Below, in pieces: positions 24,532 to 60,130 of a DNA stretch of 64,000 nucleotides. The stretch's first letter is position 1; each line of letters opens with the position of its first letter. Origin of the DNA: Nereocystis luetkeana (taxonomy: Eukaryota > Sar > Phaeophyceae > Laminariales > Laminariaceae); contig JARUPZ010000013.1 of the NCBI GenBank assembly GCA_031213475.1, positions 8,207,338-8,271,337 on the forward strand, in the 5' to 3' direction. Both the position numbers and the translations under genes were made by a program. The notes below the pieces were generated by a model. That model was given only the letters and a program-made list of their open reading frames with translations, had not been told where the DNA came from and did no database searches.

Positions 24532-24589
24532 GTCAAAACTCGTGCCTTGTTGGTCTGGATTCGCGATGCGTTGAAGGCACTTCAGTTGT
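24532..24589 (+). CDS. LRR gene 1 exon: N-terminal Cys motif
   Basis: 58 nt between TTCCAG and GTGAGTG. Enters in phase 1 and leaves in phase 2. Encodes QNSCLVGLDSRCVEGTSVV. The two Cys, the Gly between them and SRC are shared with the matching exons at 43871 and 58859, which supports both the frame and the splice sites. Confidence 0.75.
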
Positions 24590-27500
24590 GTGAGTGACAA
24601 TTGCATATAAGCTACAATAGTCAGGGAGCCTTTCCGTAGAACCCAGACGTGGAAGTGGAGCATCCTCAACTCAATTAGTGAGCAACTTGCAATACCTGCG
24701 TGACAGCTCCCCTGCAGACCGTTACGCGTGCGTCGCACATTTCTAGTACACTGGTGGCACATCATTGAGGGGTCATTGCCCGGAATCTACCGTAGAGACG
24801 ACACATGTTTTCAGTGGTTAGAATATCCCTTCGAAGACACCTCGAAACTTTGAGCGGATGTAGAGCTACACCACAACGACTCACTCGAACGAAGCCTCCC
24901 GGCCGCCATTTAGAATGGTAAATCTACGTTGTGAGTTCCATCGAATACGACACGCATCGTACAATATCAGAACCTCCCATGCTCCCCTTCGCCGGTCTTC
25001 GTATGCTCCGACTACAGGGATCTCTCTGGCTGCGGTATCGCAGACGCTGACAGCACTGATCTCAAGCTATGCCTCAACACCATTGGACGCAGCGGCATTG
25101 TCACCCTGTGAGCTATTCTTTGCGACGCAGGATCAGCAAGAGTACCTATTGTCGGCGGTCCGACGCCACGCTCGTTCGTCTTGTGCGCTAACTAACACAA
25201 TCCAACCAGCAAGGCTACGGTGCAATTTTGGTGAACTCAATCCGCCTATCGTGTACAATGTGATGGTTTGAAAGGGGCGGGTTTTTGTTGCGGCGGGTAC
25301 AGTAGTTCCATCCATGTTTTGTGTCGCACAGGTGGCGTTTACTGTTTTGTCATTCCCGTCATTGGTCCAAACGTACAATCGGGCCTCGTCGTCTATCTCG
25401 GGCCCCTTGAGACCTCAAGAGTGGACTTTAACCCCTTTAGAACTATTAAAAATAGACAAATCTGAAAAATGGGAACGAAACAAAAAATGAGAACGGACGT
25501 TTTTTTTAGAAAGCAAACCAATTGTGTACAACTCCAAGAAAAAAGTTGACAGTCCTGTGGGGCTGTACAGCAGCCTTCGAATGAGCTGTCGCTCAGGCTG
25601 GAAGTCCTCGGCATCGCCGCGGTAGCCAGCATGTAGAGAAATGACAATAGAGCCAGCGTATATCGCTTTTTGCGCCCACCCGAAGGCACGAGATGGAGCA
25701 TGACCGTTCTGACGAGCTCCTCTCACAGGGCTGGCCAAGGGGTTTCGCAGGATCATTTTGGTTATCTGATACACCACATGGTTCTGGAGATACGGCTTGG
25801 TTCTCATTTTAGGCTTCGTTCCCATTTTTCCGATTTGTCTGTCTAACTGCAGTCCCGATTTGAGGATAATTCAGTCAAATTCTAAGTAGTTTGTCCCCAA
25901 ACGGGGACTACGCTACTAAGTGGGTTAAAGCGTTTTCGGTCTCCTGCAAGTATATGACTCACAACCAGTTGTTCACGAAAGCTTATGGGGGGGGGGGCTT
26001 GTAAAGGGGTGGTGACATTCGGTTGAACTGTATCGGTAGATGTCTTCCACGGTTCGCCGTTGTACGCAGTACCTATTGGCCAGTTTCACGCTGCCATGAA
26101 GGTAGTGCAAACGTACACGGCAGTGCAACACAGCGTATTTCTCCCGGCCCCCTCCCCCACCCCCGATGAATTTAATCGCGATTGTCTATTGTGACATATT
26201 CGTCGCTCCGTTGGCGCTTTTTGGTTGTTGGAACAGCCGGCTGCAGGCGAACGGCATTGGAACCATCGAAACTGATACCTTCGATGATATGACGTCTCTT
26301 CAAACCTTGTGAGTGCGCGAGTGAGGGTTGAACTTTTGTCGGACCGAGGCAGACGAAAGACGTGTAGCATGGCCACCTACACCCAAAAAGTGACAACGAT
26401 ACGCACACCTCCGTCACTCCACTGCAGTCAAATAGTTGTGCCACTACCTCTACTACGGCTGCTGGAGCCTCTACCCCGCTGTTATCTCTCAGCCTTCTGC
26501 AGAGTCCGAATGTAGTCACTTCTCCAAATGAGAGTACACCCGTCAACAGTTTTGATTTTTACGGAATCGGCGCAGCGACACGAACGTCGATTAGCCAGGG
26601 TACACCAGCAGGAGACGGCGAGCCCCAGCCCTCCTTGGATAAAACTCTGCTTCTAATCGTCTTGCAGCCAAGTTTCATGTCCATACACTGACTGGTAGTT
26701 ATGTTCCATCGACGGGCGAATTATCTTCTGATCTATTCTAACTAAGGGCCGGCCCTAACGGGGGGAAAATAAACGGGAGAATAAATCAAATACCATTCGA
26801 AGAGCGGGACTAAAGAGCACGTGGGGTTTTGGTCAAAAAAACAAAAATAGAAGTAGAAATCCCGATACCTACATTTTCATTTTTCGTTTTTTTAACTCCC
26901 ACAAGACTTTAAAAAAAAACAAAATTGGTGCCTAATAAACGAAATATGGGATACCCAGGGTCGAAGAGGAACATAGGAGGAGCTCGAAGCGTTGGGATGA
27001 AGTCCCGACAAAGTGTCTACGACCGGTTGGCAAACGAGGGCCGATGTAGTGCATGTGGCTGCCACGCGCCTTGTCTGCTGATGGCGGTAGGGAGTCATCC
27101 TGCGGTACCCTTGCAAGAAACCTGGCGATCAGGAAGTGGCTGTGGCGGTATATTGTTCGACATGATTCCCACTTAACATTCAAACGTCTGCCATCGAACA
27201 GCGATGGCCCACATAAACGTTCTAGAGCACTCGGGAGAGAGCGGGTTGGACCACGAGAACCGCCTGCTGTGGAGGGTGCCTCACGTGTGCGAGTTGTGTC
27301 TATCCACGGTCGCTGTCGAGCTCTATCGCCGAGAATCACGTGCTGTGGCGGTTGAGTCATTCTGAAAAACTGCACCACGTAAAAAATCGACTCGGCTCAT
27401 CTTTTAGTTTCGTTTTTTTTTCTCGTTAGGACAACCTGCTGTTTTTGCGAAAAACGAAAGTCTCTTCGTTTCATTTTTTTTTTCGTTTTTTTGCCATCGT

Positions 27501-30500
27501 TAAGACCGGCCCCAAGCACAGTTCCCAGCGTGATTCCTTAGAGGCGGGGGACACCAGGTGCGCACCGCATCGATTCGCCTAGAGACTCCCCGAGAGCTCC
27601 CCCATGAAGGCTCTTGGTTGGCTACGTGGAGAGTTGCAAACTAGCGGTTCGAAGACCCTCCCCGAAAAAGATTCGTCAGCGAAGAACAATTGAAATGTAT
27701 GCGTGAAAATGCGCCCTACGAACGGTTCAATAATTCTATTCATCGGATCATTTTGACAATAATTGGCGAGTAGAACAGCATCCCATGCGTACGCACCCGA
27801 GGGTCGGTGGAGGAATGAAACACGTAAAAAAACATGTTTTCCCCGTCCGTGGTATACGTACGCATATCTATAAACCACCGACAATTCCTATCTCGAGTGT
27901 GCGTCTGCCGCAGGACCTCACTAACGAAGCAGAGTTACGTTTTTTCTGTTATCTCGGGCCACACCCGCACACCCCCCACCTCTAGACTTTCAAAGTGTTT
28001 GCATTCCAGTAATGCTTAGGCACCGCTTACGATTCGATATGGATCGCACAAATTCGATATTTGCCGAAGGAAAGTTCGATATGTCCATCTATCGTCACTG
28101 CGTTGCATACGTGGGGTTGTGGCTATACAGCCACGCATGATTGTGGCTATACAGCAATGCATTGACAACAGTGGAAGCGGACTCGTCGACGATTTGGGGT
28201 CGTTGGCGAACTTGTGAGCGGAGCGTGTGAAATTAAACTATACCTGGTATGTAAAACGTACTGCCTATATGCTGTAACTATTGGCATGTCAGCGTTCCAG
28301 GTGTTGAGTTTTTGAACCATTATGTCGTGGTTGTATGCCTTGCAAGAGTTGTGTTTCAGATTAGGGCCAATTCCTCGATCTCACGCTGTCTTGGTGCAAT
28401 AGGTGAGTGACCAGCGTAGCACGAGATGGTACCCCATACATATGATTTAATACTGTTTTCATACGTTTCATTATGATGTACGTCAAATCCCTCGGCGTGT
28501 CTGGGTCGTATGATCAGGTGGCTGCATGACAACGCCATCGGAACCATCGGTCCTGGTGCCTTCCAGGATTTGGGCTCTGTTACGACCTTGTGAGTGATAT
28601 TTTAATGAGCTGCGTTCACCACGTACCTGTGAGGACAAAGTTCATTCCAACTCTGACCGTTCCGTGCGGAAGCAACCCCCCCCTGGTATGAATATATCTC
28701 CTGCTGCATCTTTTCCCCACACGCGATCCCAGATTTAAATTTCCGACCGTATTTCGACTGCATAGTTTTGACACCAAACCTCCAGTACTCTGCAAAGGCT
28801 TGCCGGATTTGTGGTGGCACTCACGTTCGTCTACGATGGAAGAAATGGTTGGAATAACAAACAATGTTGCTCCTTGCGAGTCGAGAGCCTCTCGGAAAGA
28901 ATATTTCAAGGTTAGGTTCTGAAGGGTACCTACAGAACCATACCCGGGGGCCTTATCAGAGAAATACCCTACGGAGAACTTCTGTGAGTTATGTAAGATA
29001 TTCATACCCGTGCCCGGAACTTCTGTAGGTTCTGTACGACCTTTTAACCGGTACCCGGAACCTCTGTAAGTTCTGTACGCCCCGTTTCAAAATACCCGGG
29101 GTACCGGTACAACGTTTTAGTACCTTCCCCGAGCTTCTGTGAGTTCTGTATGCCCGGGTCACAATACCCTGAACTTCTGTGAGTTCTGTAAGGGTTTTAT
29201 AGCCGTACCCGGAACCTCTGTATATTCTGTAAGACATCCATACCGGTACCCGGAACTTCTGTAAGTTCTGTAAGACCTTCATCACAATACCCGGGGTAAG
29301 GGTATACCCTCGGCACAATACCTGGGGTGCCAGTACAGATAAGCATGGCGTTGCGGAGCAAAGATGTCGGGAAACAGGACTTCCAACTAACTGTTGACAG
29401 GCAGCAGCTTTGCCATGACATGCCGTGACGGACGCCAAACTGCTCGGTTTTAGTGTGGAACACTTCGGCCCTACACCTTTGACAGCGCATGTTTGGCCTT
29501 GCTTAATATGTCTCCCGACATTTTGTTGAGGAGTGAAGGGTTGTGCATTCTGACGTCATGTCTGAACAGTGACACACCAAAAAAGAAATGACAAAATGTT
29601 ACAGCAGGGTACAGCTCTCAGACGCTAAGAAGGACACACGCTTGTTAGATCTCTGAGGCCGACTGACCTGCTGGTTGGGAGTTCGAGAAGTGCCTTCGAG
29701 CAGTAATGATCGGGTCACGCAGAGAGTGGATCGATGCAAAGCAGTAGTTGCAAGCAGCCAGAGTGAGCAATGGAACAGGAACCACAGACACGATGACGGG
29801 CACCACGGGCAAGGCAGGGCCCAAGGGGCTGAGGATCGATAGGACAGGTATCACAGATCACTTGGCTTTGACTTTCTTTCTTCACTTGGTGGTGTTTTGT
29901 AAAACACCGGGTTGTTCCGTGACCTCGTTACTGGTTCTATACACAGAACTGAAGGCGTTCCCACACCGGGGACCTTCCCTGCCCCTATAAGATCCGCCCA
30001 GAGGGTGGTATCCAAATCTTGCCCTCTGCCTGTCGAATAGACCCGACGCGTGACTGATCAGGACAGTTGTCTCGCGCCGTATTATCCTCCCCACAGCGCT
30101 GGTCACAACGGTCGCAACACTATGAACCTCCTGCCCTGGCGCCACTCGCTGAAACAGAAATTACAGCTCGTGTATACGTCGTATGTATATATATATATGA
30201 ATACGGTACATACTTGGTTTGATGCGTATAGAAATAATACAATAATATCACCACGAGCGCAACTTATGACACTCACGTACGTACGTAAGCAGAGGTTTCG
30301 TGTTTTCACCCGTACACTATTATATTACCAGGTACAGGGTATGATTTATTAAATAGTAGTGGGATGTACCGTACCAGTACTCGTTTCACGCATGGCCGTA
30401 GTCGAGGGGGGGTGGTTCAAAAACGTTTTCGATTTGTTTTCGTCGATGCAAAAAACTCTGAAGCAACGCACGCTGATTGATACACAGGCGGTTTAGCGCG

Positions 30501-33500
30501 ATTTCAGTCCTTGCGGTAACCTCCTCGTTCAAAACCGGAGTCGTATAGACACGTACTGGGTGGGGATGGTGATGTTCCTCAAGGCCAACTTCGAGCACAT
30601 CGCCGATTACGGGGCCATCCTCATGATCGCTGGGGAAGGTGTTTCGGTCATATCTCCCGGCCCGGTTAACCGGGAAGGACGCCGACTAGGTGGCGGCTGA
30701 AGCCGCCTTTGATGTGCTGAACATTCCTGCGGCATCAACTACTACTCAAGACATGGGCATGGACGAGGGCTATCGAAGTCTCGGTGGGGGGGGGGCTGCT
30801 GTTCTGGCTGCTTGCTGCTGCTGCTGCTGCTGCCGCCGAACTCCTATGTAGATTGGTATCGGCCTGTTATTGTTCGAAAACCCGGATGGTGGGACTCAAC
30901 ACCGTTGTTTGTAGTACTAGAGTTTAATACATTAGTAGTGGTGATTGGCATGACTTCATTTTCGGTAGTTATTTCGTCAGTTTTCGAAGGAGTTTCGGGT
31001 TTTCCATTTAAATGCTTGAAGTACTTGCAGTAGCATCATTAATAGTGTTATTCCAAGCTTTTGTTTTAGCGGAACGGCATACAAGTACGTTGATTTAGGA
31101 GGTAAATCTACGACCGCGGACGTCGTTCCCATGAAGTAGGAACGGTCCTTACCGTGGAAATGGGGAAAGACAGCTGTATTTAACAGAAATGAGCTACGCA
31201 ATGGGCTGTGCATGGTATATACGCTTTACTACCGACATTATATACAGTGTTTCGTGTTCGCAGTACCCCAATCGCAGTCTTTTGAAATGTGTTTATGTAT
31301 TTGTTTGTCAAGTAAATTCGTAGTTTTTTCGCCCCCTTGAGGTGGTATTGCCAGAGTATTACCCAGAACCTTTATAAGTTCTGTACGCCCGGGCCACAAT
31401 CGGAACCTCTGTGAGTTATGTACGCCCGGGCCACTATCGGAACTTTTGGGAGTTCTGTACGCCCGGGCCACAGTCGGAGCTGCTGTGGGTTCTGTACGCC
31501 CGTTCACATAATAAATACCCGTAACTTCTGTGAGTTCTGCACGCCCGTGTTACAATAACCGGAACTTCTGTGAGTTCTGTGCGACCTTCATACCCGTGCC
31601 CGGAACTTCTGTAAGTTCTGTGCGACCGAGCCACAATACCCGGGGTACCAGTACACCATTTTGATACCTGACCGGAACTTCTGTGAGTTCTGTACGCCCG
31701 GGCCACAGTACTCGGAACTTCTGTGAGGTCAGTATAGATGTTATACCCTAACCCGGAACTTCTGTAAGTTCTGTAAGACACTCATACCCTTACCCTAAAT
31801 CCACAAACCGTACAGAAATTAACCTTCACATATTTTAGGTTGCATCTTAGTAGAGCTGAACCTTGGGGGGATACGTTGTTAAAAGCGTTTCACCTGCAGG
31901 CGTGCTCGTGCTTAGACGGCGGTGACACGGGTTTCTACGACGGTGATACCGCATACTTCGTTGCATGTATTTCTTGTAATTGTTTCATTCGATGAACACA
32001 ATAGAGCATATATATATTTTGGCTTGTTGATTGATAACCTTTCTTCCATAAAGCGAGTGGGAACGTTTGTTCGATACATGGGTGGAGTACCAGAAATGCT
32101 GTTTTTGAGTTTGTTCGATGATCTCCCGCCAGCCCCGTCCGGAGTTATGATTACAGATTGCGTCCACCAGATACCGTCCTGCCGACTTCCTGCTGAAATT
32201 TTACAATAAAAAATGCCCCATGCGAGGGCACAGCACCATCGCACGACACAATCTGTTGAAACCAAAGATCTTGAAACGGAAACCAAACAGGGTAAACAAC
32301 CAAGGCAATCTGGCGCCAATAGCGCCGACGCACCATCTGTTTCATCTGATGTGTATGACCCCACTCCACGACAGAAGGGAACCACTGCTGTCTGCCTCTC
32401 GATCGACCGCGGTAATCGCCCTGCCGCTCCTCCTGCTGCTAGTTTACAGCTGTCTATTAGCATCGATTGTGCGGAATAGGCTGCAGAGTGAAAATTCGTA
32501 GGAAAACGAAAGTTGCTTTCGATTGGAGTCGTGCAACTGTACTGCAGCAAGTACTCGTGCGTACCAAGCATGTAGGGGAGGAGAAAACCGCACGAGTAGC
32601 TATGGCGGCGGCACAGGTCGCACATCAGAGACAGTTCGTGATGGTTTGGGCGTAAGATCACGACACACGCGTAGCGCTGCCCTCCCGGCCGGCTGTGAAA
32701 ATCGCACAGCCGCCGATGCCACTCCGTCGAAGAGCACAACCAACAAGAGCGAAGGGCCATTGTTCTGGCGACGGATGGTCTTACTAGTATTGATGTAAGA
32801 GCCTTCCCACTGTAGGGGTGCTCCAGAAGTTCCTGAACCCCTCACATTAGGAGCTCAATATCTCACCCGATACAAACCTTGGAAGAAATCCATTCGTGCC
32901 ACTTGACCAGCACGTGTATGCGCTAGTCCTAAAACGAATATGCGTGTAAAAGTTTAATCCTAACTGGCAGTTCCTCACTCAACGAACTCAATTGGTCAGC
33001 AACCTTTATCCCAAAACGTACAACCCTTACCGTGGGGTGTCTCGTAATCCGAATATATCACCAGGATATCTGTATCCTTACTGCCGGATCGCAGGTTCTG
33101 ATGAACAAAAGAATCAGCAGCCTCCCCGCGGACGTGTCGCCGCGTGTGTACTGTATGAGGCGGTGGTATTGGTGATAGGGCTGCGTTGTAGCTCGGGGGT
33201 GTCGCAGTGCCTTCTCTGCACTCTGTCTGCATTTCCCACAACGTACGCATAGGCACTGTGGGGAAATTGTGGTCATTGCACTGCTTGCAATGCAACTAGA
33301 GCTATCGTTCAATTCCTGCGAGATCAGTTGGATGCAGGGTCTCACGGTCTGCCATTGGTTCGATTGGACAATTGAAATATGTCCCAACTTTGTACCCATC
33401 TGCCCGCCGGGTTTCTGGTTCGTTAACTCTTCCTTGGGATTGCGTGTGTGCGATTTGCCAGGTTCCTACACCAAAATGCGTTGACCACGTTACAAGCAGG

Positions 33501-36500
33501 CATCTTCGACGGTTTGGGCTCCGTCAGGACCTTGTGGGTGGTGTATTTGGCATTGCGTTTCTCGTCATTCGTAAGTACACTCGTCTCACCTCGTGACCGT
33601 AGGACAAATCAAGCATTCCCCGTATGAATTTTGTTCGTGTTTGAGTGACGCATATCGTAGCAGGAGGTGCTAAAATCTTGTCGAATATCAAGGGGGTGGT
33701 ATCCTCACACGGTGCAATCTGACACGCGTTCCTCCGTTTGCCGTCTTGACCGATGGGAACAGGTTGCTTTTCGATAGCGGCGTCGCAACCATCGAGGCTG
33801 GCGCTTTCCGAGGTTTATCTTCCTTGATTGATTTGTGAGTGAGAACGTAACAGTGGTTGTCTTGTTGGCCCGGGGCTACAGCTGCGAAAGCCACACCCCC
33901 CCCCACGTTGAATCAGCTGCTGCTACGACAATCAAACGCTCATCGTCGCCCCACCGGGTCCTCACGACACCGATATGAATGCAGGTTTAGCATCCTACTA
34001 CCTTGTATTCGTTTACCGAACGTTAGGGAGAACCTTCCTCAAACTGATGTGGTTGCCTCCGGTGGGAAAGGGTGCTGATGTATGAAACAATTTCTTCTCG
34101 GACCAATAAGTGTTCCCCGCGGTGGAGATACTCGTATTCAAAAGATCCAATAACACGTAGGTGAGGACAGAGATATCCAGTATAAAATGACGCAGCTTCT
34201 ACATGACTACCCTGCTCCTACCGATGTGTGCTTCTACGGCACTGCTGCTTCTATGACGCCTGTACTATTCTCCCCCACAGTAGCAATGCACCCCCCGGCA
34301 GACGCCATCGATACGCACGCTGTCAGTACTACAGACGAGCAAGACATGATGAGTATCTGTCGCTTTCACGGCCTCGGCTTACATCACTCTGTAAACATAT
34401 ACGGTAAAAAGCGGAGGCGTCGGCTTGTTAACCTTACACTCGTAGCGAAACGAGTTCAAATGCACACAACCACCTGTTTCACTTCATGCTTGATTCCATC
34501 AGGAGTACTTTTTGATAATCTTCGCGTCTAATATATATATCGACATTTTTCATCTACGATGAATTTCTTCCGTTTTCCAGGCGGCTTGACAACAACGAGA
34601 TTGCCACGATAGACGACGGGGTCGTCGAAAACGTGGGGGTTCTTCAGGACTTGTAAGTGCATTGTGTGGGGTTTATCCTTCTTACAGCAGTATCGACTGG
34701 CTGTAGCTAAACGTTTAAGGGACTTGGGTATCAGATGTACTCATATGACACGGTTGTTTGAAAGGATGTGGGCGACACCTTGAACATTTCTCGGCCACAT
34801 AGCACCAAGCTCCCAACAGCATCTCAGAAAACGATAGATTTACTGAGGTCTGGCAGACAGGATACAGAATATCACCGCGACGAGGGGACGCACATTCGCT
34901 TACATATTTTTGCTACATACATGAAAGGACGGTACACGATCATCCGCCGCTCAAATATGGCACCAACTCGAACCTCGCGACGTATAGGAGGAATCGTGCC
35001 GGCGGGCCCCCGCTAGCACGTATGGTAGTCAGCTTCATGTATCCACTTCCATGACGGGTACCAGCTTGCGCTGGCGACGCCTTCATCGCTTAGAGATCCG
35101 CTGCGTCTTCACGTCGTCCCCGGCCGTCCAACATGACGTACCTTCCCTGAGTAGTGGGCATCAAATGCATCTGAGTTTCAAACACCCCCCTCTCTCCACC
35201 ACTGCAACGAGCTTTATACCGTAGGCCGCTGACGTCAAACGTTGTGTGCTATTGAGACTTACTTGCGCAATTACCCCGTTTAAAAAACAACTGTCTTCTG
35301 AAGGATTTAACTTCTTTTCCCGCATGCGGTCCTGCTGCAGGTGGTTAAACGGCAACGCGTTGACCACGATAGGAGCTGGCTCCTTGTACAGTTTGAGCTC
35401 CCTTGTTGACTTGTGAGTGTGGTACGCGTACGCAGTCTTCATTTTTTTTTGTAGAAACGAGGGACCAGAGTTAATTAGGACCAAATAATATTGTTTAGTT
35501 AAAATGGTGAACTATATAGGTGTTTATGTATACCATAGGTCCTATTAACTATGGTCCCCCGAAATAGTCATGTTCAGGGAGTGTGGAGACGTCGAGCGTG
35601 TAGGTGATGTCGCGCCTGGTGGCATTATGTCTCTTCAGAATGTTCTCTTGCCTGAGGAACGTTTCGACCAAGTACGATTTTGACGCTGTCCGGGGGAGGG
35701 GCGGGTGGCGCAGGAGACTTGTATGTAGCCGTCGATACTACCCTCTTCTCCACGTGACTTCAATCCTGATGCGTTGCAATCGGATGTACGTTGCTCCGTT
35801 CACGTATTTTTGGTGGTGGAAAAAGGCGCCTGCAAGACAACAACATCGGAACTATCGAGCCTGGCGCGTTCATGGATTTGGTATCTCTCCGACTCCTGTA
35901 AGTGAGAGAGTTGGCATGAAGTTCCTCTCGTCCCGGTTTAGGTGACACGGCACCCACGCGGTGACGATTTGATTTTTCTGCGCTAACGACCACATAGTAA
36001 TGGTGATGAAAATAGTTGACAAGAGTCGCCGCGAGTCGTTGCGCTCACCTTACTCCTTCGACGTCTTCTGGGTCGCACTGTAATGTAGAGAGATTTCGCT
36101 CTGACCCCATACGAATACAAAATAATAGGGAAACAGTGTTGCATATCATTGGTAACTCCGGGCGTTGAATTGGTCGCCCTGAAGCCACGGCCCTTCTGTA
36201 TCAAATGACGGTAGTGTCAGGGGACACACCGAATGTCATTCTAGTGATCGTTGACGAAACTCATCATTTTCCGGACCGTGTGGCATCACGTCCGAGCAGC
36301 GCGAATGGGCACAGTGAAGCAACCCGCAGGTCCTTTTCAAGATGCTTCGCAGGGATCATCAAAACAATGCGCCGAACTAATTCACTCGTCTAACTTCGGC
36401 TCGAACACTGTTTTTTTTTTCTGTTTCAGCGTAGATGTTGTCTAGATCCGGGGTAAAGCGTCGTACACACCCTTGTTTGCTGCTTGCCCTCTTGTAGACG

Positions 36501-40168: not shown

Positions 40169-40239
40169 TGTACATGGAATCGTGAGGCACCTATGACGAC
40201 CGCGTCATTCATGTCACTAGTACCGCCATAGCATGCACT

Positions 40240-43870: not shown

Positions 43871-43928
43871 ATTCGAACTCCTGCCTTACTGGCCCGACTT
43901 CGCGATGTGTCCCAGGCGTCCAATCTTT
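43871..43928 (+). CDS. LRR gene 2 exon: N-terminal Cys motif
   Basis: 58 nt between TGTCCAG and GTGAGTG. Encodes SNSCLTGPTSRCVPGVQSL. Same length, phases and Cys spacing as 24532 and 58859. Confidence 0.78.
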
Positions 43929-46900: not shown

Positions 46901-49900
46901 ATATCCGCCAATCGCGCCCGTCTGGTAGCAAACGCGGCGAGCATTTTACTGCTGCTACATCGACTACTGTACAGAACATCCCCTGTTTTGCGGCGACTAC
47001 AGTTACTTTTGTGACTCGTTTGGTCCACGTACTGCGCGATATCTGCTGGTACTCCACAAGCGGCCGGTACTACTCAAAAAACAAATTCAGTGGTCGTACT
47101 ACGACATCACGACCCCAGGTATTACGGGGGACCACAGTTAATAGGGCCAAATATTGTTAGTAGAAATGGTGTAATATACAGATTTTTATGTATACCACAG
47201 GTCCTTTTAACTATGGCCCCCTGTAATAGTGTTCTGCCTTTTCTACGCTACTACTTGAGTACGTACGAACTACACCTAGTTGCATTTTGCAGCAGAACCG
47301 TGCACGTGCCGCCGGCTGTACATCGTATTGGCGGCTGGTCATGGTTTGCTCTATGTGATGTACAATAATTAACCTGCGTGTTACAGCTCCCTCTCTACAC
47401 TCTGCGTGTCTGTACTTCACAGAGCAGGCTGGACTGTCAAAGTATTGTTGTTGTTACAAGTCAAATTTAAATGCAACTATTGCTCCTGTCACATTCATGA
47501 GAGCTTTGGATCGAAGTTGCACGGTCTGTCGTTGGTTTGGTTCGATGGAGTAGTACACAGTCAGAATAGGAGGCATTGTTTTGTATACGGATGTTACCAC
47601 CCGGCTGCTGGTTCGCTAACACCTTGCGCTTTTGCTTGTATGCGATACATCAGGTTTCTCCACGTTAATAGGCTGACCACGATAGAAGCAGGGATTTTCG
47701 ACAATCTGGGCTCTCTTATAACCTTGTGAGTGAAGACTATCAGTAATTTTGTTGTTGCTCGTACAGCAGTTGCGACTGATTTGCGTAGAACATATCGGGT
47801 TTTCCGAAGCCGAAAAAAAAACGGATCGTCGTGCCAATGGTTGTCGTGATGTAGCATCTTGAAAGTGAGGTGTTTCGATCGGGTTCCAACAATCGCAGCG
47901 GTTGCCGGAAAATTGGATCCGTCCCGTCGTAGATAGTTCCGAATCGCAGATGATGTCGAGAGGGTGCTGGACTCATTCCGTAGCGCGAAGTGGTGGCCCG
48001 CCTGTCAAACTTGTCCTCACGCGTTGCATTCTGATGCACGTCGCTCTTCTCATCGTTTTGGACGGCGGGAACAGGTTGCTCCTCGACAACGACATCGGAA
48101 CCATCGAAGCTGGCGCTTTCAATCAGTTGACTGCTCTTGTTGACTTGTGAGTGAGCGAGTGATGAACGGTTTTGTTTCTCGATCCGAGAGTACGAGTGAA
48201 AAATGATTTTTTTTTCTCTTGACCCGCGAGCACATGTACGGCATGTGACAACACTCTACCGTCTACCGTAGATGCATGCGTTCATGGCGCTAGTCTCAGT
48301 GAGTCTTCATGGCGTCAAGTACCAGGTAATGGGGAAGGTTTTCGCCCTCCCCCATTCGAGTACCGAAGTTCGGGGACTGTTGAATTGAGTGTTGCCTTCT
48401 GGAGAAAGAGTGCCCATACCTGAGTACCTGGTATATTTCACAGATGACCAAACAGTGTTGCTCCGATGCATTGCGGGGAAAAAGGTAGACAAGCACAGAT
48501 CGTTCCGGTAGTTGGCTCCATGACGCTGGAGCCCTAATCAAACGCTTTGTTCGCCCCAGGATACCCTACAACTTGTTCCACAGCAGATGTTTCGCTCGTC
48601 ACGTCGTCAAACTACCAATCGAAGCAAGCCACGCATGTCGGCATGCGGGGTAGTCCTGTCTTCCTCGGAATGACATACCAACTAACGTTAGCTACGTACA
48701 TGCCGCGTCTACTCGGGGTGCCCTTGGGTTCACGATGAGCCTCCCACTTTAGCTTGGTCTAAACACGCACTGTTGTGACGTCGTTCGATTACACTTGTTT
48801 TCCTACGAGGCACTTACAATTTCGCAGAAACGCACAATAAATGCTCTAGCAGATTCAGTTCGAGCTTTCAACACGCGTGGTTCCCTTTTTGCTCAGAACT
48901 TGCACCGCTACAACAAATACTTTTCTCGTCCCTTCATGATGCTACTACCGTGGCTACATCTGTACCCTACTGCATGTATTCTACGGATACTCCTCATAGC
49001 GACTGCATGTAGTCACTTATGTACTACTCTTGCTGCTACGCGCACTAGAGTTACTGTTATACAGTAGTAGTACTGCGACCGCAATCGCTATAAACTGATG
49101 TACATTACTACTGCTGCTGCGCCAACAATGCTTATACAGCCAGTACCACCAAGTAAGTCTGCAAAATCTGGTACAAAAACAATATATCTCAATATATTTA
49201 CTACTGTGCCCCTGCTACATCTAGTCCTCATACGACTCGTAGTTGTGTTCCCTAAATCTTCCATGCAATCAGTACGACTGCTCCTGCTACAGCCTGTTAC
49301 TGCCGCTGCTCCTTTCAATGTTCTACTCAACCACACAAGAAATGAACTTCGCTGCATGCCCTCTGTACTTCAGATGTGCAACAGCACCTGAAAGTACCGT
49401 GGCTTAGACGGCCTGGGTTTGATTTTTTTTCTGCTGGCATGTACGGTCAAACGTGGAGCCGTTGAGCTGTTGCCTAACCACAGAAAAATGCCGAAACAAG
49501 CGGAAGGGCGAACAACAGCCTCTGTAACACACTGATCCTTTTAGTCCCACGCTTACACCCGATTTCCATGGCACCTCGGTGAGTTTCAAGTGTACGCCGA
49601 ATTTCTTTCTGTATATTATTCAGGCGGCTTGACGGCAATGCGATCACCATATTGGACGCCGGAATGTTCGACAATTTGGAGGCCCTTGAGATGTTGTGAG
49701 TGGGCATTGGGCATATATATGTTGTTCGTCCGTTTTATATATCTCCGACAGGCAATATATAGCCAGGTAGGTGTCTACCGGACGTGCGAATCTCGGGTGC
49801 TGCTACAGCTGTACTTCTTGATGACGGTGCCACAACCCCACGGACTGCCGGAGCATAAGCAACGAAATCATGAGAAGTCTCGGCGAGCGGAGGAGGCGTT

Positions 49901-52900: not shown

Positions 52901-55900
52901 AAAGGTTCTTCTTGCGAAGGCTAATGTATGTCACAGATAAGAACCTTGGAACGTGTCTTCTGAACATCAATCAGAAAAGTCTCGGCGCAAGCATGAGCGA
53001 GACCATGTCTTTCGCGCAATGGGAGGCTACTCCAGCATGGCTCACAAGGCTGATTTCTTGCGGAATTTCAGGCGGCTAGACAGCAATCAGTTGACCACGG
53101 TGGAGGCGAACACCTTTTGACAGCTTGGGCGTTTTTCGGAGACGTTGACTACTATAAATCGTCTGCCGCCCATAACTACTCATGGCTGGGTCCACCCTGA
53201 TAATATTGGGGGTGTCGATGTCAGAGGTGCTGGCACATTTAACGACAAATTTGTGAGCGATTTTGTTCCCTTGCAGGAAATGCTTTCTGACAACGAGCCA
53301 GCTGGATACTGTCGGGCTGAGGGGTCGGAATGTTGGGATGGTGCCCGTCGCGCAAGCTCCCCTTCCCTCCACAAGTCACCTATGTCTTACTCCGTTGTAA
53401 ATGTACGTACCTCGATCGCTTTGTTGGGATTTTTACGCTGTGGTAACAGGCGCTTGGAGAACAACATCATCGAGGCCATCGAGCCCGACGCCTTCAAGGA
53501 CCTGGTGTCTCTACAACTGCTGTGAGTATTGCGATTCGGAATAATGTTCCTTTCGTGACGGGGTACACGTGTGATACGGTGTCATCGGTGCGACACGTCG
53601 ATCCAGCTGCAGTTACGTCACTTCATTACGCTATCGGTTGACGATTCGTCGGTGTTAGATTGGTCTCGTTCGGCTAGTAGCTACCTTGACCGAAACCCCA
53701 AGCCCTCCTCCCACTGGTACTGTTTTTTATGGAGACCTAGAATATCCCCCATGCGAATAACAACATATTGGAGATACATGCGTTTCACACGATCATTTCT
53801 CACGATGTATCGAATCGTTGCAGTGATGGATCACACCGTTCTTTTCGTCCGAGGCAGCGTTTGCTGTTTTGAGTTGATGTTATCAAGCATGAAGCTGGAT
53901 AGACCAAATCACATAATACTACGTGGTACGTCAAGAATACCGCAAGTTGTGTTCCAGGCATTTCGAATATCGTTGTTGGGCTGGGTCTTATACACTTGTT
54001 TTTGAGTGATTGAAAGAGGCAGGAAGTCGGATTTTCCACCGGCAAAAAGCCACACCAGATCGGTGCGCCATGTATGTGCCGTCTTATCGTGATTTTGGTT
54101 TACTTCATGGGAGAATTAAAATAACAGAACAGAACGGACATTTTGAACTCCACGTGGACCACGACACGAATGAGAGTCGTTCACGCCGGGTTGGGCGATC
54201 AACCTTCACCACCAGCTCCTCGAAGGAAGCAACGGAATGTGGAACCCCATGGGGAGCTGCGTAAGGGGTTTGCTAGTCGCTGGACCACCAAGGAGCTCTC
54301 GCCTTCGCGGAGCATGAGCTGCTTGCGGCGGCCGTAGTCAGAAAAATACCGTTTGATTGTTTTGATACTGCTGCTGTAGTCTCGTCCTATTCGTTTCCAA
54401 AATTGTTTTGCCTAGAGCAGCTGCAATTGGGCGGCCGCAAGGGACACGATAGTGGCCAAGGTACTGATGCCCTCCCTCTCCTCCCTCTCCGTGGTGGCCG
54501 ATGCACAAGTGTTTGAGCCCAGCTTTGTACAAGCGTACCAAGGCATGAAAGCGTCGTGACCCGTCATGAACCCAGTCTATAACCTATTCAAAATTGTATA
54601 ATGCCTCCGAGGTCTTGTGCAAAAGCAAATTTTATCACTTTCGGAGTTGATCAGAAGAGGCTGCCACAAAAAAACATTTCATCGAGTTTCATGAGTGATA
54701 AAATCTCGGAGGAACATTTTTTCCACCAAACAGGCCCGATATAACGTGATTTTGATAAAATCTGATCAAATAAGACCAGACACCCCGAAGCCTCCGTAAA
54801 CAGTCATATAATCACCTAAACAATAAATCATAAGATCCTGTCCGTCCATCACAACCAACCATCTGTAAAACTCGGTACGAACATATATCTGCAGTGCATG
54901 GATTTTTGTAGATACCACGCACAATAAGCGCCGCGTACTCTTTGCGGTTCTTTGCTCGGGTGACAAAAGATATCCTGGCAAATAATATCTCCTCTGGGGG
55001 GGAGCATGTAATTTCGAGCCGGAGTGCCGAACGTATTCCCGAAAAAAATGGAATGTGCCGGACATCTAGTAACAGGTAGAGACATACGAGGCAATGCCAG
55101 GTTAATGGGTTTGCCCGGCCAATGCGAGATTCTTCCCCAAAATGCGTCCTTAGGTCCCTTGCATCCAACGCTCTGACGACGCTTCCGGTGGGTATTTTCG
55201 AGGACCTCGGATCTGGTTCGTCACTGGAAACACTGTGAGTGCTCTTTGCGTCTTATCGCAGACTCGTCATGCCTGGGCACAAGCCCTAGCAGGCGGAACG
55301 TTGCTGACTTTGAACAGCTGGCCGTCACGTTGGCGTGTCTATGTCCATCACAACTCCATTATGACACCCCATCAGTGACCATTGTTGTCCACGCGTTTGA
55401 CCATATTCGACTGGCCACGTTCGCTGCGCAATCGAAACGGTTTCTACTCATTCAGGGGCCTGACTGGAAACGATGACCTACAATGCATCCCCACGATGTA
55501 AGTCGTCAGTGCGTGGGGTTTCCGTGTGCTGTGGGCGTGCGTGAGTTCTGTTCTCGCAGTGTGGGTGTGAATCCGAACAATAATGCTGAGCGGTTGGCTT
55601 TAGTTTTGATATATATATGCGGACACGACGGGATTATCGCGGGCAATTTAGTATTTGACGCCACACGTCCGATGCCTGAGTTGTTAACACTGCTGTATTT
55701 GTGAAATTTAGGCATATTGCACCTAATGGATGTGTCAGAGTTCTCCGGTTGTAGGTGAGGGGAGACAAGCCAAAGCACATTGGTCATGCCCGTGAGGTAT
55801 GTGAATCAAAGCTTAAGTACAGGTACATACTGTGTTTCATGAATCGATTATGCGCCTGCCGGGAACAATCCGCCGCGTATTTCGGGTAGCGTCCGAAGCC

Positions 55901-56514
55901 GGGTGAAAACGGCGTTAGACGTTCACTCAGTCGGCGTGAAACCACTTATTTCTCTTAAATGTATCCCGCTTTTCCCTTGCGTCCCGGTTCATGCAGCCCC
56001 TCGTCCGTGTTGGGGAGACCGCTTCCTACAGCTGGACTCTGCGGTAAGTATCTGGGGGGTGCAGCAAATGTTGTCTACTTCCTTCGAAAGTAGTCGATTA
56101 CGAAGATAACTACCTGCTACAGTAGGTATCTGTTAGTGTACGTGTCAATGTGCCATTCTCAAAGAGAGATCGACGGCGTGTCCGCTTGAGACGCTGAAGG
56201 TGGCGTGCTGGCGGTATACATTGCAGGGCGGAGTTGGATACCTAGTCCGGAATGTAGAGAAAAACACCAGCCGATGAGTCCTTACCAGGTGGGCGATGAG
56301 GCTTTAGCGCGTGGCTTCAACAGTTGCATCCGGGGTTTCATCGATTTTGTCAATCGAATTGAGATTGTTTCCACACCCAAAAACATTACCAGTGCCACGC
56401 TCTAGTGCGTGTCGAACTCGCGCATTTGCTGCCCAACAGAGTGTACACCAGCCGCCGCGGTGGTGTGCGATGCGGAGTGTGCTCCGGGGGCGGTGGGCTA
56501 CACCTGCGGTCCTG
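43871..56514 (+). CDS. LRR gene 2: Cys-capped leucine-rich-repeat protein (partial model)
   Basis: Tandem paralogue of gene 1 on the same strand, with the same exon series: 58-nt Cys exon, 90-nt N-cap, LRR exons, 81-nt last LRR, 42-nt C-cap, 47-nt linker, and a 75-nt Cys-rich exon. Six LRR exons look intact (46630, 47654, 48075, 49624, 53450, 55154) and two are decayed (46276, 53072). Matching exons lie 17.6-19.4 kb from those of gene 1, and some introns are also similar, so a whole segment was duplicated. Because every LRR exon is symmetrical (phase 2 at both ends, 24 codons), skipping the decayed ones leaves the frame open. Start codon, signal peptide and terminus are not identified. An extracellular ligand-binding role is inferred. 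Confidence 0.8.
44414..44503 (+). CDS. LRR gene 2 exon: LRR N-terminal cap
   Basis: 90 nt between AACTACAG and GTAAGTG. Encodes NLSGCGIGDADMANVGLCLD, then TVGRSGIVTL. Differs from the gene 1 exon at about ten residues. Confidence 0.87.
46276..46347 (+). pseudogene. Decayed LRR exon in gene 2
   Basis: After TTTTAG the frame reads KLYSNALATLAAELFDD, then a TAA where other repeats have a Leu codon, then GSLV. The expected GTGAGT after 72 nt is absent. Still clearly an LRR exon by its NALATL..ELFDD core. It is either skipped by splicing or already outside the transcript. Confidence 0.7.
46630..46701 (+). CDS. LRR gene 2 exon: LRR
   Basis: 72 nt between GAGAACAG and GTGAGTG. Core QLQQNDIGTIDIGAFQGLTS, then LTAL. 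Partner of 26237 in gene 1. Confidence 0.9.
47120..47228. mobile_element. Tiny MITE family R5, copy 2
   Basis: About 109 bp. TATTACGGGGGACCACAGTT at the left is mirrored by AACTATGGCCCCCTGTAATA at the right. Same family as 35459-35561. Both sit in introns of the LRR genes. Confidence 0.78.
47654..47725 (+). CDS. LRR gene 2 exon: LRR
   Basis: 72 nt between ACATCAG and GTGAGTG. Core FLHVNRLTTIEAGIFDNLGS, then LITL. Partner of 33462. Confidence 0.9.
48075..48146 (+). CDS. LRR gene 2 exon: LRR
   Basis: 72 nt between GGGAACAG and GTGAGTG. Core LLLDNDIGTIEAGAFNQLTA, then LVDL. Partner of 33763. The GGCGGGAACAG acceptor context is also alike. Confidence 0.9.
49624..49695 (+). CDS. LRR gene 2 exon: LRR
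   Basis: 72 nt between TATTCAG and GTGAGTG. Core RLDGNAITILDAGMFDNLEA, then LEML. Partner of 34581. Confidence 0.9.
50134..50541 (+). other. Open frame in gene 2 intron, unidentified
   Basis: 135 codons, no recognised family. The minus strand over the same bases also reads plausibly (DDYVKGFHMNMLADKMWLMM). Its end runs into the GGAAG-rich repeat. Probably worn mobile sequence or chance. Confidence 0.15.
50440..51660. repeat. GGAAG-rich repeat region with inverted halves
   Basis: Words such as GGAAGTAGATGGAA, GCAGACGTAGACAGAAGTTT and GCGGACGTAGATGGAAGATT recur on the plus strand (50440-50560, 51220-51540), and their complements recur at 50800-51060 and 51590-51640. CCGTAAAA follows the unit at 51257 and 51402. 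An A run of about 19 lies near 50956. It looks like a decayed foldback or nested repeat in the long intron of gene 2. Confidence 0.5.
52056..52280 (+). CDS. Candidate symmetric exon in gene 2, 75 codons
   Basis: Open between TATACAG and GTAAGTG, entering and leaving in phase 2 exactly like the LRR exons, so it could be included without changing the frame. Reads GWTRLSVRRVSVEDEPIDSV, with a hydrophobic stretch YVPVLLNIVLLTYA near its end. It is not an LRR and has no visible counterpart in gene 1. May be chance; transcript evidence is needed. Confidence 0.25.
53072..53143 (+). pseudogene. Second decayed LRR exon in gene 2
   Basis: After TTTCAG it reads RLDSNQLTTVEANTF and then meets TGA. One extra T in the TTTT run shifts the frame there. 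The donor position has TTGACTAC instead of TTGTGAGT. By position it is the partner of LRR 6 of gene 1 (35341). Confidence 0.72.
53450..53521 (+). CDS. LRR gene 2 exon: LRR
   Basis: 72 nt between GGTAACAG and GTGAGTA. Core RLENNIIEAIEPDAFKDLVS, then LQLL. Partner of 35826. Confidence 0.9.
55154..55234 (+). CDS. LRR gene 2 exon: last LRR, 81 nt
   Basis: Between GTCCTTAG and GTGAGTG. Core SLASNALTTLPVGIFEDLGS, then GSSLETL. Same three-codon extension as 37357. Confidence 0.9.
55456..55497 (+). CDS. LRR gene 2 exon: LRR C-terminal cap
   Basis: 42 nt between CATTCAG and GTAAGTC. Encodes GLTGNDDLQCIPTM. Twin of 37664. Confidence 0.88.
55997..56043 (+). CDS. LRR gene 2 exon: linker
   Basis: 47 nt between CATGCAG and GTAAGTA. 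Encodes PSSVLGRPLPTAGLC. Twin of 38424 with the same entry and exit phases. Confidence 0.75.
56440..56514 (+). CDS. LRR gene 2 exon: Cys-rich module
   Basis: 75 nt between CCCAACAG and GTGAG. Encodes ECTPAAAVVCDAECAPGA, then VGYTCGPG. Four Cys. Nine bases shorter than its twin at 38848, in frame. Confidence 0.78.
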
Positions 56515-57292: not shown

Positions 57293-57360
57293 GTCGCGCC
57301 GAGTGTCCCAGTGTTTCTTGCGACCAATTTTCTTGTATGTATGGGTGTATAGATACCTGA

Positions 57361-58159
57361 GGGCTGCTCCAAGCGAGGAAACAACAAAATTTTAACGAAG
57401 AGCAGGACTGAAGAGCACGTGCGTTACATTCGTGAAATTAAAGGAAAAACAAATAGTGATTCCGATACCCCCGTTTTCAATTTTTCGTGTATTTTTACGC
57501 CCGAGAGCATACCAGGGGTATGTTTAAAGAAATGGGGCGTGGTGAGAACGAAATATGGGTGACCCGGGAACGGAGAGGAGTATGAGAGGAGCTTGGCGTT
57601 GGGATGAAGTTCTCATAACGTTCCTTTGACCGGTTGGCAGGCGCTCGATGGCCGAGCTGGTAGATTTGGCTGCTGCGCGATTCGTCTGCTAACGGCACGA
57701 GCATGTATGTGTTGAGTATAGTCAAGGGGTGCCCTAGCAAGAAAACGAGGGATCAGAGTGTGGCTGTGGCGGAATATAATATTCTTCGCTATGAGTGCCA
57801 CCCCACACATGTTCGAGGTGCGATTGTCGATACATAACCTCTAGAGCACTCCGGAGGGAGGGGGTTGGACCTCGAGAACCGCCTTCTGTCGAGAGCGCCT
57901 CGCGTTTGCGAGTTGTGTCTACAGTATCCACCGGCCTAGTCGAACGCTATCACAGCGATTCACGCGCTGTCGCGGTTGCGTCATTCTGGAAAAATGCACC
58001 GCGTATAAAACCGGTCTAGCTTCTTGTTCAGTTTCGTTAATTTCTTCTTTTGTTCGTCTCGTTAGAACTCAACCTGCTGGTTTTCACGATAAAAGCGAAA
58101 GTCGCTTCGTCTATTTCGTTATTTTTTGTTTGTTTGTTTTTCCTCATTAAGACCGGCCC
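57361..58159. mobile_element. TIR element family R4, copy 2
   Basis: About 800 bp homologous to 26756-27513. Right end CATTAAGACCGGCCC is well kept; the left end GGGCTGCTCCAAGCGAGG is a worn version of GGGCCGGCCCTAACGGGG. Shared internal blocks include GTTGGGATGAAGT, GAGAACCGCCT and GCGAGTTGTGTCTA. Confidence 0.6.
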
Positions 58160-58858: not shown

Positions 58859-58916
58859 GTCCAAACCCGTGTCTAACTGGGTTGGAGTCGAGATGCGCGC
58901 CAGGCATTGGCGAAGT
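58859..58916 (+). CDS. LRR gene 3 exon: N-terminal Cys motif
   Basis: 58 nt between GATCCAG and GTGAGTG. Encodes PNPCLTGLESRCAPGIGEV. Same Cys spacing as the other two copies. Confidence 0.78.
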
Positions 58917-60130
58917 GTGAGTGAAATGTTCTCAGATTGTATTAAGACGTCTAGAAACAATTGGCTAGGACATACTTTCGTGTATGCTCCCCTTTGTAAC
59001 CTAGCTGTATGTAGCATAACATTTCTGCGTGACGGCTCCCTTGCAACCCGGAAGGAGTTCGTCCATGGTCGATGCACACTGTTGCCGGGTGGCCGACCCT
59101 CCGAATTGTCCTTGTTGGTTAGCTTGAAGCATCCTTATTGAGTGAAGAATAAGCCTCGAGTAAACCTACAGTACGTTTCACCTTGAAGACCCACTCGAAC
59201 GACGGGTGCCGGCCTACGTGATCGATACCATATACATCGTACAATAGCTCGACTTCGTGTCGCTCGTGGGTTAGTTTCGCAAATGATTGTGTTCACGTCA
59301 CCTGGTGCACCACACACCGCACACCATCGAAACTTCACATTGTTTTCTTCTGTTGTCTTATTTCGCTGTCAACCCCAGGGACTTCTCTGACTGCGGAGTT
59401 ACAGGCAATGACCTGGCCGATCTCCAGCTTTGCCTCGATGCCATCGGACGCGAGAACATTGAAAGTTTGTAAGATTCCCTGTTCGTTCGATGGCCAGCAG
59501 AGACATCCTTACCGCTGTAACGTGATTTTCTTTCAACTGATGTCCTAAATACAGTCCTGGAGATTAGCCCCCACTATAGTGCAACTTCTTTCGACATGGT
59601 TCACATTCCGTGTGACCATACGTAGTGCACCCTGTTGCCGTAGACGTGGGATCCGTTTCGGGTGCGCATTGCGATGCTATTAATAGAGTGTAGGTAACAG
59701 ATATAACATGTCCATATTCCAGACTGTGCCCAATTCATAGAGGAGGGGTCTGTTCGATAATTTGATGTATTTTGTACGACTCAACAGCTGAGTCTTAAGG
59801 TCTGCTCCTTTGAGCGTGCGACTGATGACAGCACACGGAACCGTTTGACTTGCAGGGTGTTGTTGACAGTCGGATGTGATTTGTTGGTATTGGCCGTGCA
59901 CGTTGGGCCGTTCGATCCATTTCTGCGGTAGTTCGTCATATATCCTCCGACATGGGGGTAGAAAAGTAAACGTACAACATACAGGACGACATAGTCCGCT
60001 GGTCGCGGGTTCGATCCTCAATATGTCCATTGTGCTGCACGTCGCGCCGTTGAAACAGCCAGGTGCAAGTAAGCGAAGACGGAGCGATCACGGCGGACAC
60101 TTTCAAGGGCATGGTGAATCTTAGAGTCTT
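58859..60130 (+). CDS. LRR gene 3: N-terminal part of a third paralogue
   Basis: Three exons of the same series are visible: 58-nt Cys exon, 90-nt N-cap and one 72-nt LRR exon, same strand and phases as genes 1 and 2. Parts of its first intron resemble that of gene 1, with shared TGCGTGACAGCTCCC-like and CACTCGAACGA blocks. No further LRR exon, C-cap or Cys-rich exon is recognisable in the 3.9 kb to the window end. So the gene either continues beyond the window after a long intron or is a truncated copy. Function as for genes 1 and 2, by inference. Confidence 0.65.
59379..59468 (+). CDS. LRR gene 3 exon: LRR N-terminal cap
   Basis: 90 nt between AACCCCAG and GTAAGAT. Encodes DFSDCGVTGNDLADLQLCLD, then AIGRENIESL. 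The most diverged of the three caps, but length, Cys and IGR are kept. Confidence 0.87.
60059..60130 (+). CDS. LRR gene 3 exon: LRR
   Basis: 72 nt between TGAAACAG and GTGAGTG. Core QVQVSEDGAITADTFKGMVN, then LRVL. Divergent at the LxxN position, but the F..M.NLR.L half, length, phase and donor fit the series. Confidence 0.75.

Follow-up and report, generated by a model that had tools for sequence, protein, structure and literature searches.

A 64,000-nucleotide stretch of Nereocystis luetkeana DNA, referred to here as the window, was analysed and found to contain a tandem, intron-rich LRR gene family with two near-complete copies and one partial copy. The family is predicted, with a probability of about 0.72, to encode a probably extracellular LRR binding protein. 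This protein would consist of an N-cap with Cys residues, 24-residue repeats stacked in a curve, a C-cap and a short Cys module. The exons and decayed exons are listed in Table 1.

Table 1. Predicted exons and decayed exons of the LRR gene cluster, with positions in the window.
Gene	Feature	Length (nt)	Class	Remarks	Position	Strand
1	Candidate first exon			ATG; signal-peptide-like hydrophobic stretch; phase-1 donor AG|GTAAGT	23052..23115	+
1	Cys exon	58		two Cys	24532..24589	+
1	N-cap exon	90		two Cys	25018..25107	+
1	LRR exon 1	72	I	gene 2 counterpart not found	26237..26308	+
1	Decayed LRR exon A			broken frame; without AG acceptor, donor retained; E 1.9e-8	28142..28213	+
1	LRR exon B	72	I		28518..28589	+
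1	LRR exon C	72	L		33462..33533	+
1	LRR exon D	72	I		33763..33834	+
1	LRR exon E	72	L		34581..34652	+
1	LRR exon F	72	L	pairs with gene 2 53072 by position	35341..35412	+
1	LRR exon G	72	I		35826..35897	+
1	LRR exon H	81	L		37357..37437	+
1	C-cap exon	42			37664..37705	+
1	Linker exon	47			38424..38470	+
1	Cys-rich exon	84		spliced at conserved GTGAGA, or in-frame stop soon after	38848..38931	+
2	Cys exon	58			43871..43928	+
2	N-cap exon	90			44414..44503	+
2	Decayed LRR exon A			in-frame stop; donor gone, acceptor retained; E 5.3e-6	46276..46347	+
2	LRR exon B	72	I		46630..46701	+
2	LRR exon C	72	L		47654..47725	+
2	LRR exon D	72	I		48075..48146	+
2	LRR exon E	72	L		49624..49695	+
2	Decayed LRR exon F			stop-broken frame; poor donor, acceptor retained; E 5.1e-5	53072..53144	+
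2	LRR exon G	72	I		53450..53521	+
2	LRR exon H	81	L		55154..55234	+
2	C-cap exon	42			55456..55497	+
2	Linker exon	47			55997..56043	+
2	Cys-rich exon	75			56440..56514	+
3	Cys exon	58			58859..58916	+
3	N-cap exon	90			59379..59468	+
3	Divergent LRR exon	72		groups with gene 1 LRR exon 1 (support 87/76); E 4e-8	60059..60130	+

Genes 1 and 2 share one series of exons, of 58, 90, n x 72, 81, 42 and 47 nt followed by a Cys exon, all in phase, with seven intact 72-nt LRR exons in gene 1 and five in gene 2. The joined reading frames are stop-free, encoding 301 amino acids over 13 exons in gene 1 and 250 amino acids over 11 exons in gene 2. Splice sites were inferred from sequence and most exons were first picked partly by such sites, which is how the open frame and AG/GT sites at all 24 modelled exons of these two genes should be read. 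A profile was also trained on the seven 72-nt exons of gene 1 alone, with the splice-site term left out. Its top ranks went to the 72-nt exons of gene 2, all five of them bounded by AG/GT sites (scores 29.9 to 49.8), followed by the gene 2 81-nt exon (23.6) and the gene 3 exon (13.0). The next-best place scored 5.7, and the maximum over ten 23-kb Markov sequences was 8.3. The exon grammar is confirmed as real, and in genes 1 and 2 the exon sizes described in an earlier note on this DNA are present where that note put them and in the phase it gave. The note had extended the full grammar to three genes on the same strand, which holds for genes 1 and 2 but for only the first three exons of gene 3. 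Gene 3 has a 58-nt exon, a 90-nt exon and a single divergent LRR exon, with no further LRR exon found in the remaining 3.9 kb up to position 64000; the full grammar is therefore demonstrated for two genes and not for three.

The repeats are LRR, not TPR, by Pfam, with LRR_8 matched at 3.5e-63 in gene 1 and 4.8e-32 in gene 2, and they match the typical 24-residue extracellular LRR class in both consensus and length. The best 60 of 305 matches to solved chains include IGFALS, LRRC15, LRIG1, LGR4, chondroadherin and TLRs, with E down to 5e-48, and the alignment to some designed LRR, VLR and LRRTM chains continues beyond the final repeat as far as the C-cap Cys. The locus is like the extracellular animal proteins (IGFALS, LRRC15, LRIG1, LGR4, TLR and VLR) in its 24-residue repeats, but unlike them in its caps: the N-cap had no match in the PDB up to E 1, and Pfam LRRNT and LRRCT were not matched up to E 1, thus no cap domain of the VLR type was found. 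NCBIfam matches were far under the curated cut-offs, a generic LRR signal, and Rfam gave no matches at gathering scores. In viral contigs, the joined gene 1 protein confirmed none of 10 candidate stretches and the two-protein alignment none of 22. Two records of the phages collection matched (31% and 36% identical); one of them carries an annotation as an LRR protein and the other carries none. One of 109 candidate stretches in genome contigs was confirmed. It belongs to a Gammaproteobacteria MAG and aligns, at 38% identity, with LRR sequence alone (query residues 165-222). The window also contains dispersed repeats and a fragment of reverse transcriptase. DNA matching the reverse-transcriptase region was not found in the phages collection, nor an exact match to a minisatellite unit in viral contigs.

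It is plausible that the predicted protein is extracellular, given the Cys in both caps, the signal-peptide-like candidate exon upstream of gene 1 and the extracellular LRR proteins that are its nearest solved relatives. This candidate first exon is one of two identified by a loose rule between 17000 and 24520, where 1.4 per 7.5 kb are expected by chance; a strict donor rule, set after the candidate had been seen, found none in 30 Markov sequences of 7.5 kb. No DNA like it was found upstream of gene 2 or gene 3. An apparent ATG exon at 43832-43928 was dropped, as it is read in a frame other than that of the conserved Cys.

The exons could instead be the N-terminal part of a larger receptor, of the ROCO, NB-ARC-TPR or LRR receptor kinase type, with signalling exons unrecognised downstream. 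The exon size and phase are those described for brown algal ROCO LRRs (PMC11378527), and LRR receptor kinases are recorded in brown algae (PMC8307928). A GTGAGA is conserved after the Cys exon in both genes 1 and 2, so more exons may follow. The acceptor-led ORFs considered as candidate C-terminal exons include a Pro/Thr-rich one at 40074 in gene 1, of which no counterpart was seen among those listed for gene 2. However, ROC, NB-ARC and kinase domains had no match in 10 ORFs around and downstream of the two gene ends, a scan that short exons could escape, and caps carrying Cys are in keeping with an extracellular protein. Only 2.3 kb lies between the Cys exon of gene 2 and gene 3, and part of this is a repeat also present at 26798-27512; gene 1, with 4.9 kb of downstream space, is less constrained. 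In a search for a transmembrane helix on the + strand downstream of genes 1 and 2, no stop-free 19-residue window had a mean hydropathy of at least 2.2; a helix divided over two exons, or one of lower hydropathy, would escape this search. A larger receptor is considered unlikely.

The 72-nt and N-cap exons finish in TT or CT and the possible following exons begin with C or G, so that a Leu or Phe codon is formed whichever two exons are joined. This was found for 240 of 240 exon junction combinations, in agreement with the proposal that LRR boundaries are in phase 2 within such codons. At every junction into a 72-nt exon the codon is Leu in genes 1 and 2, against Phe in gene 3; at the 81-to-42 junction gene 1 has Met and gene 2 has Leu. 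Each 72-nt exon spans from mid-codon to mid-codon of successive framework Leu, and the predicted translations thus demonstrate that one turn of the LRR solenoid is encoded per exon. The frame remains open in all subsets of the 72-nt exons (128/128 in gene 1 and 32/32 in gene 2). Since the seams between any two exons are Leu or Phe, removal of a repeat is demonstrably neutral, at the predicted splice sites, for both the frame and the hydrophobic core. The earlier idea of repeat loss at no cost to the frame is supported by these open subsets and by the presence of three decayed exons.

In a DNA alignment, genes 1 and 2 are colinear, introns included, at LRR positions A, B, C, D, E, G and H. One order is kept, at these seven positions by sequence and at an eighth (F) by position. 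The genes differ by three broken LRR exons that are still visible and by one exon that is absent; the broken exons had gone unmentioned in the earlier note. In each of the five pairs of intact 72-nt exons, the two members are each other's closest DNA match when all 12 intact 72-nt exons are compared. The exons of the two genes are sisters in the tree for four of eight pairs (D, E, G and H) and are not sisters for A, B, C and F. In protein comparisons neither the B pair nor the E pair gives a best match, and the C and D pairs reach no more than a tie; an ungapped comparison of intron flanks recovered none of five pairs, the flanks tracking exon class. Exon F of gene 1 matches 53072 at E 0.023, which is weaker than its match to gene 2 exons C and D. 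A frameshift-tolerant scan scored two decayed exons at 18.1 and 18.2 and the gene 3 exon at 18.8, with one of six null sequences at 17.6; these exons therefore rest on the separate search that gave the E values in Table 1 and on their place. As aligned, the predicted genes demonstrate change by point substitution and by the in-place death of single repeats, not by reordering. The locus fits a birth-and-death LRR family.

The 18 LRR exons split once into two classes, I and L, with tree support of 97/95. The classes nearly alternate, at 7 of 8 steps, which random order gives in 9 of 126 arrangements (p 0.07, not significant alone). From these two lineages it is likely that the array expanded as cassettes of two exons, of 48 residues, were duplicated together with their intron edges. 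The whole gene would then have been duplicated in tandem, and the copies would have changed by point substitution and the death of single repeats in place, with no reordering. The conserved order, the two lineages and the in-place repeat death point to cassette duplication and then birth-and-death as the ordinary mode, in what is a clean two-copy case for checking shuffling exon by exon.

For the LRR exon pairs of genes 1 and 2, dN is 0.28 and dS is 0.74 (Fisher p 6e-6), while the 58-nt exon pair, with dN 0.54 and dS 0.56, has no constraint seen on its own. Concave sites were compared over 6 exon pairs. For the five sites of the a priori xxLxLxx set, omega is 0.82 against 0.39 at other exposed sites, with a bootstrap 2.5-97.5% range of 0.15-2.78, not significantly greater than 1; with position 6 added as a sixth site, the values are 1.19 and 0.30. 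Fisher tests of concave against other exposed sites on rounded counts gave p 0.07 to 0.12 for five sites and 0.02 for six. Judged by these substitution rates, selection on the predicted exons is purifying overall and weaker at concave sites. Neither omega value, 0.82 or 1.19, is claimed as positive selection. A ligand, be it microbial, self or cell-wall, would presumably be bound on the concave face, where these values suggest that amino-acid change is least constrained.

Shuffling of modular LRR exons has been put forward as a way for brown algae to gain adaptive-like immunity. The earlier note had raised a diversity-generating recognition system for this locus. Under this reading LRR exons would be put together through alternative splicing or recombination, and different individuals or cells would have different repeat sets, along the lines suggested for the ROCO and NB-ARC-TPR genes of brown algae. 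The open frame of all 72-nt exon subsets, the Leu or Phe at their seams and the higher omega at concave than at other exposed sites would suit it, as would the splice variants with differing LRR sets that are reported for Ectocarpus ROCO genes (PMC11378527). However, frame neutrality is a general property of symmetric exons, and the exon order and the identity of the intact 72-nt pairs are unchanged between genes 1 and 2 at a dS of about 0.74. Exon differences arise by in-place decay, coding change is mostly purifying, and omega at concave sites is not significantly above 1. This pattern gives no support to shuffling, and a diversity-generating system is rather improbable. Slightly less probable still is an algal counterpart of Dscam, with secreted LRR receptors outside ROCO/NB-ARC-TPR using the exon-end rule for combinatorial alternative splicing into many concave surfaces. 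That the locus is largely dying, with gene 3 as a truncated relic and repeats being shed from genes 1 and 2 under relaxed selection, would account for the three decayed exons and the absent one, the divergent gene 3 LRR with no further LRR exon in the 3.9 kb left, and the reverse-transcriptase fragment and dispersed repeats, but is unlikely with an open frame and AG/GT at 24/24 modelled exons (sites partly used in picking) and dN/dS clearly below 1.

Among the closest known systems are the LRR-ROCO genes of brown algae (Teng 2024, PMC11378527; Zambounis 2012, as cited there and in PMC8307928). One 72-bp phase-2 exon per LRR has already been published for brown algal ROCO genes (Teng 2024, PMC11378527), and the resemblance to these exons that had been noted earlier is borne out in size and phase. 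Excess variation on the concave face is a further likeness. The tandem family described here is unlike the ROCO genes in its Cys-bearing caps, with ROC/COR not found in 10 ORFs, and in being a tandem cluster with a static exon order between two copies; most ROCO genes are said, in a discussion of Nemacystus, to be dispersed (PMC11378527). Fifteen non-ROCO sequences of Saccharina japonica also have 72-bp LRR exons, and most are said to be LRR-only (PMC11378527). These have the same exon unit without ROC and may be of the same family, but the caps, Cys modules and clustering seen here do not appear in that description of them. What is new here is the colinearity, the in-place decay, the two exon lineages and the junction rule, and the locus supplies a defined, probably extracellular family for tests of splicing and selection. 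Outside the algae, the rat LH receptor, a gonadotrophin receptor, has LRR exons of similar size with introns all in phase 2, thought to derive from an exon coding for a single LRR (PMC11378527). By that description the size and phase are alike, but the receptor there is an animal GPCR.

The coding sequence of the cluster is divided among many short exons. Within 24532-60130 only three ORFs reach 150 aa (31912-32760 on the minus strand, 39665-40168 and 45771-46415 on the plus strand), and none has a Pfam match above the cut-off. The LRR exons were located through an AG-exon-GT unit search, with that at 33763 picked by eye, and the 58, 90, 42, and 47 nt exons by targeted scans; the phases match. 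When joined, gene 1 has 13 exons and 301 stop-free codons, gene 2 has 11 exons and 250 stop-free codons, and the partial gene 3 has 3 exons and 72 codons. Because the original exon picking used splice sites, an independent check was run with a profile of the seven 72 nt exons of gene 1, without a splice term, scanned over 41001-64000. The top seven places are the five 72 nt exons of gene 2, its 81 nt exon, and the gene 3 exon, with AG upstream of all seven and GT downstream of all six 72 nt places. The next-best place scored 5.7 and the maximum in ten Markov sequences of 23 kb each was 8.3. On the minus strand, before 26226, and after 60138, the best E value of the exon DNA profile is 0.75. 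The earlier note's grammar of one LRR per exon is thus correct and well above chance, since a gene 1 profile recovers the gene 2 exons and the joined ORFs are open. The full grammar is shown for genes 1 and 2 of the three proposed; gene 3 shows only its three exons.

Of the 13 intact 72 nt exons and three N-cap exons, 12 have TT at the 3' end and 4 have CT. Their possible successors are 15 LRR exons, 13 of 72 nt and two of 81 nt; 12 of these begin with G and 3 with C. As had been claimed, all 240 end-start combinations encode Leu (204) or Phe (36), and every exon subset keeps an open frame, 128/128 for the seven 72 nt exons of gene 1 and 32/32 for the five of gene 2. Loss of a repeat is therefore silent for both the frame and the hydrophobic core. 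This junction rule describes the exon boundaries and does not by itself prove the use of alternative exon combinations.

Genes 1 and 2 can be aligned in a single order, including exons and flanking introns. Cross-matches between non-partner exons also occur, as expected for repeats.

LRR exons by position in the gene 1/gene 2 alignment (start coordinates unless a range is given)
Position	Gene 1	Gene 2	Class	Pairing
Exon 1	26237-26308		I	
A	decayed	decayed	L	single alignment with B
B	28518	46630	I	single alignment with A
C	33462	47654	L	aligned
D	33763	48075	I	aligned
E	34581	49624	L	aligned
F	35341	53072 (decayed)	L	by place; direct alignment weak, E 0.023
G	35826	53450	I	aligned
H	37357	55154	L	aligned
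Gene 3 exon (60059-60130)			I	

Gene 1 F aligns more strongly to gene 2 exons C and D than to its decayed partner. When the 12 intact exons are compared at the DNA level, the members of all five intact 72 nt pairs are each other's nearest neighbours. At the protein level a clean reciprocal best match is seen for G only; C and D are tied, and the test fails for B and E. Comparing intron flanks without gaps recovered no pairs, their similarity tracking exon class. No trace of the first LRR exon of gene 1 was found in gene 2 by DNA profile or frameshift-tolerant scans. The order being unchanged in the sole comparison possible in the window, the proposed diversity-generating system is unsupported.

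In gene 1, decayed A has lost its frame and lacks an acceptor (nhmmer E 1.9e-8); in gene 2 it is interrupted by an in-frame stop and its donor is missing (5.3e-6). Gene 2 F has also lost its frame, and its donor is poor (5.1e-5). Frameshift-tolerant scan scores are 28.0 for gene 1 A, 18.2 and 18.1 for gene 2 A and F, and 18.8 for the gene 3 exon. A score of 17.6, near the last three, was obtained from one of the six null sequences, so those three rest on the DNA profile and place.

A tree was built from the 18 LRR exons plus 15 nt of the intron preceding each. It has one split supported at 97/95, which separates classes I and L; the intron bases are inside the alignment, so shared intron edges also favour this split. 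Gene 1/gene 2 sister pairs are seen for four of eight positions (D, E, G, and H). The intron end aacag precedes 6/8 class I exons and 0/7 of the intact class L exons listed, thus intron edges were probably copied along with the exon. In these class I acceptors purines adjoin the splice site, unlike class L (for example 26217-26236 and 48055-48074). The class order in gene 1, I L I L I L L I L, is suggestive of alternation (7/8 steps), which 9 of 126 random arrangements reach and is not significant. On the simplest reading, the array would have grown by two-exon cassettes and the whole gene then duplicated in tandem, after which the order stayed static while single repeats died.

The six LRR exon pairs have a dN of 0.28 against a dS of 0.74 (synonymous excess p 6e-6, from rounded counts), and the pooled 58, 90, 42, and 47 nt exons 0.30 against 0.73 (p 0.003); the 58 nt exon by itself is unconstrained (0.54 and 0.56). 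LRR framework positions have dN 0.11 and dS 0.67. At the five concave xxLxLxx sites omega is 0.82 (bootstrap limits 0.15 to 2.78) versus 0.39 at other exposed positions; adding the residue after Asn gives 1.19 versus 0.30 elsewhere exposed. When all possible subsets of the 16 non-framework positions are considered, the observed pN is reached by 5.7% (five sites) and 2.0% (six), and the observed pN/pS by 11.6% and 0.9%. Amino-acid change on the binding face is thus relaxed, or possibly diversifying, and positive selection is not proven.

The repeats are 24-residue LRRs (Pfam LRR_8, 3.5e-63 and 4.8e-32) of a type common among extracellular proteins of animals, and the best solved chains matching the joined protein are IGFALS, LRRC15, LRIG1, and LGR4. 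The N-cap has four Cys across two exons, in gene 3 as well, and has no match to solved structures up to E 1. Matches to designed LRR, LRRTM, and VLR chains cover the C-terminal part up to and including the last repeat, some reaching the C-cap Cys; the Cys module beyond has no match in those chains. Neither LRRNT nor LRRCT was reported by Pfam for the joined proteins. A candidate signal-peptide-like exon with a consensus phase-1 donor (23052-23115) is 1.4 kb upstream of the gene 1 58 nt exon. A loose rule for such exons expects 1.4 per 7.5 kb by chance; a strict donor rule found 0 in 30 null sequences, but was set after this candidate was known. No counterpart was found upstream of genes 2 and 3. 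GTGAGA is conserved 3' of the Cys exon in genes 1 and 2, and without splicing there both run into an in-frame stop a short way on. Ten ORFs at and beyond the gene ends were scanned, and no ROC, NB-ARC, or kinase domain was found in them.

Brown algae possess LRR receptor kinases as well as genes of the ROCO and NB-ARC-TPR types (PMC8307928). According to PMC11378527, brown algal ROCO genes have 72 bp, phase 2 LRR exons with positively selected concave sites, splice variants are reported in Ectocarpus, Saccharina japonica has 15 non-ROCO sequences with 72 bp LRR exons, most with LRR motifs only, and somatic recombinant loci had not been reported to date. The cluster architecture is a variant of this published gene style; no description of a Cys-capped tandem family with 72 nt LRR exons was found in the limited collection of literature searched.

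The window also contains a reverse transcriptase fragment (9985-10716, minus strand; RVT_1, 1.2e-11), probably from a degenerate retrotransposon; the adjoining minus-strand ORFs 10878-11213 and 11126-11566 have no Pfam matches. Minisatellite clusters (8265-8611, 28963-29304, and 31360-31826) have 37-41 base units with a GAACTTCTGTAAGTTCTGTA-like core, the one exact 24-base unit searched for being absent from viral_contigs. A 610-base imperfect palindrome (36593-37202), 73% identical to its own reverse complement and resembling a foldback element, is in the gene 1 intron between G and H. Same-strand dispersed repeat copies, 68% identical, are inside gene 1 (26798-27512) and between genes 2 and 3 (57396-58159). 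The inverted copies at 17916-18498 and 25454-25830 are 96-97% identical, far above the gene copies, indicating recent duplication or insertion. A three-copy dispersed repeat (15359-15612, 32799-33043, and 50614-50814, the third inverted) has 74-79% identity, its latter two copies being in introns whose length differs by several kilobases between the gene copies.
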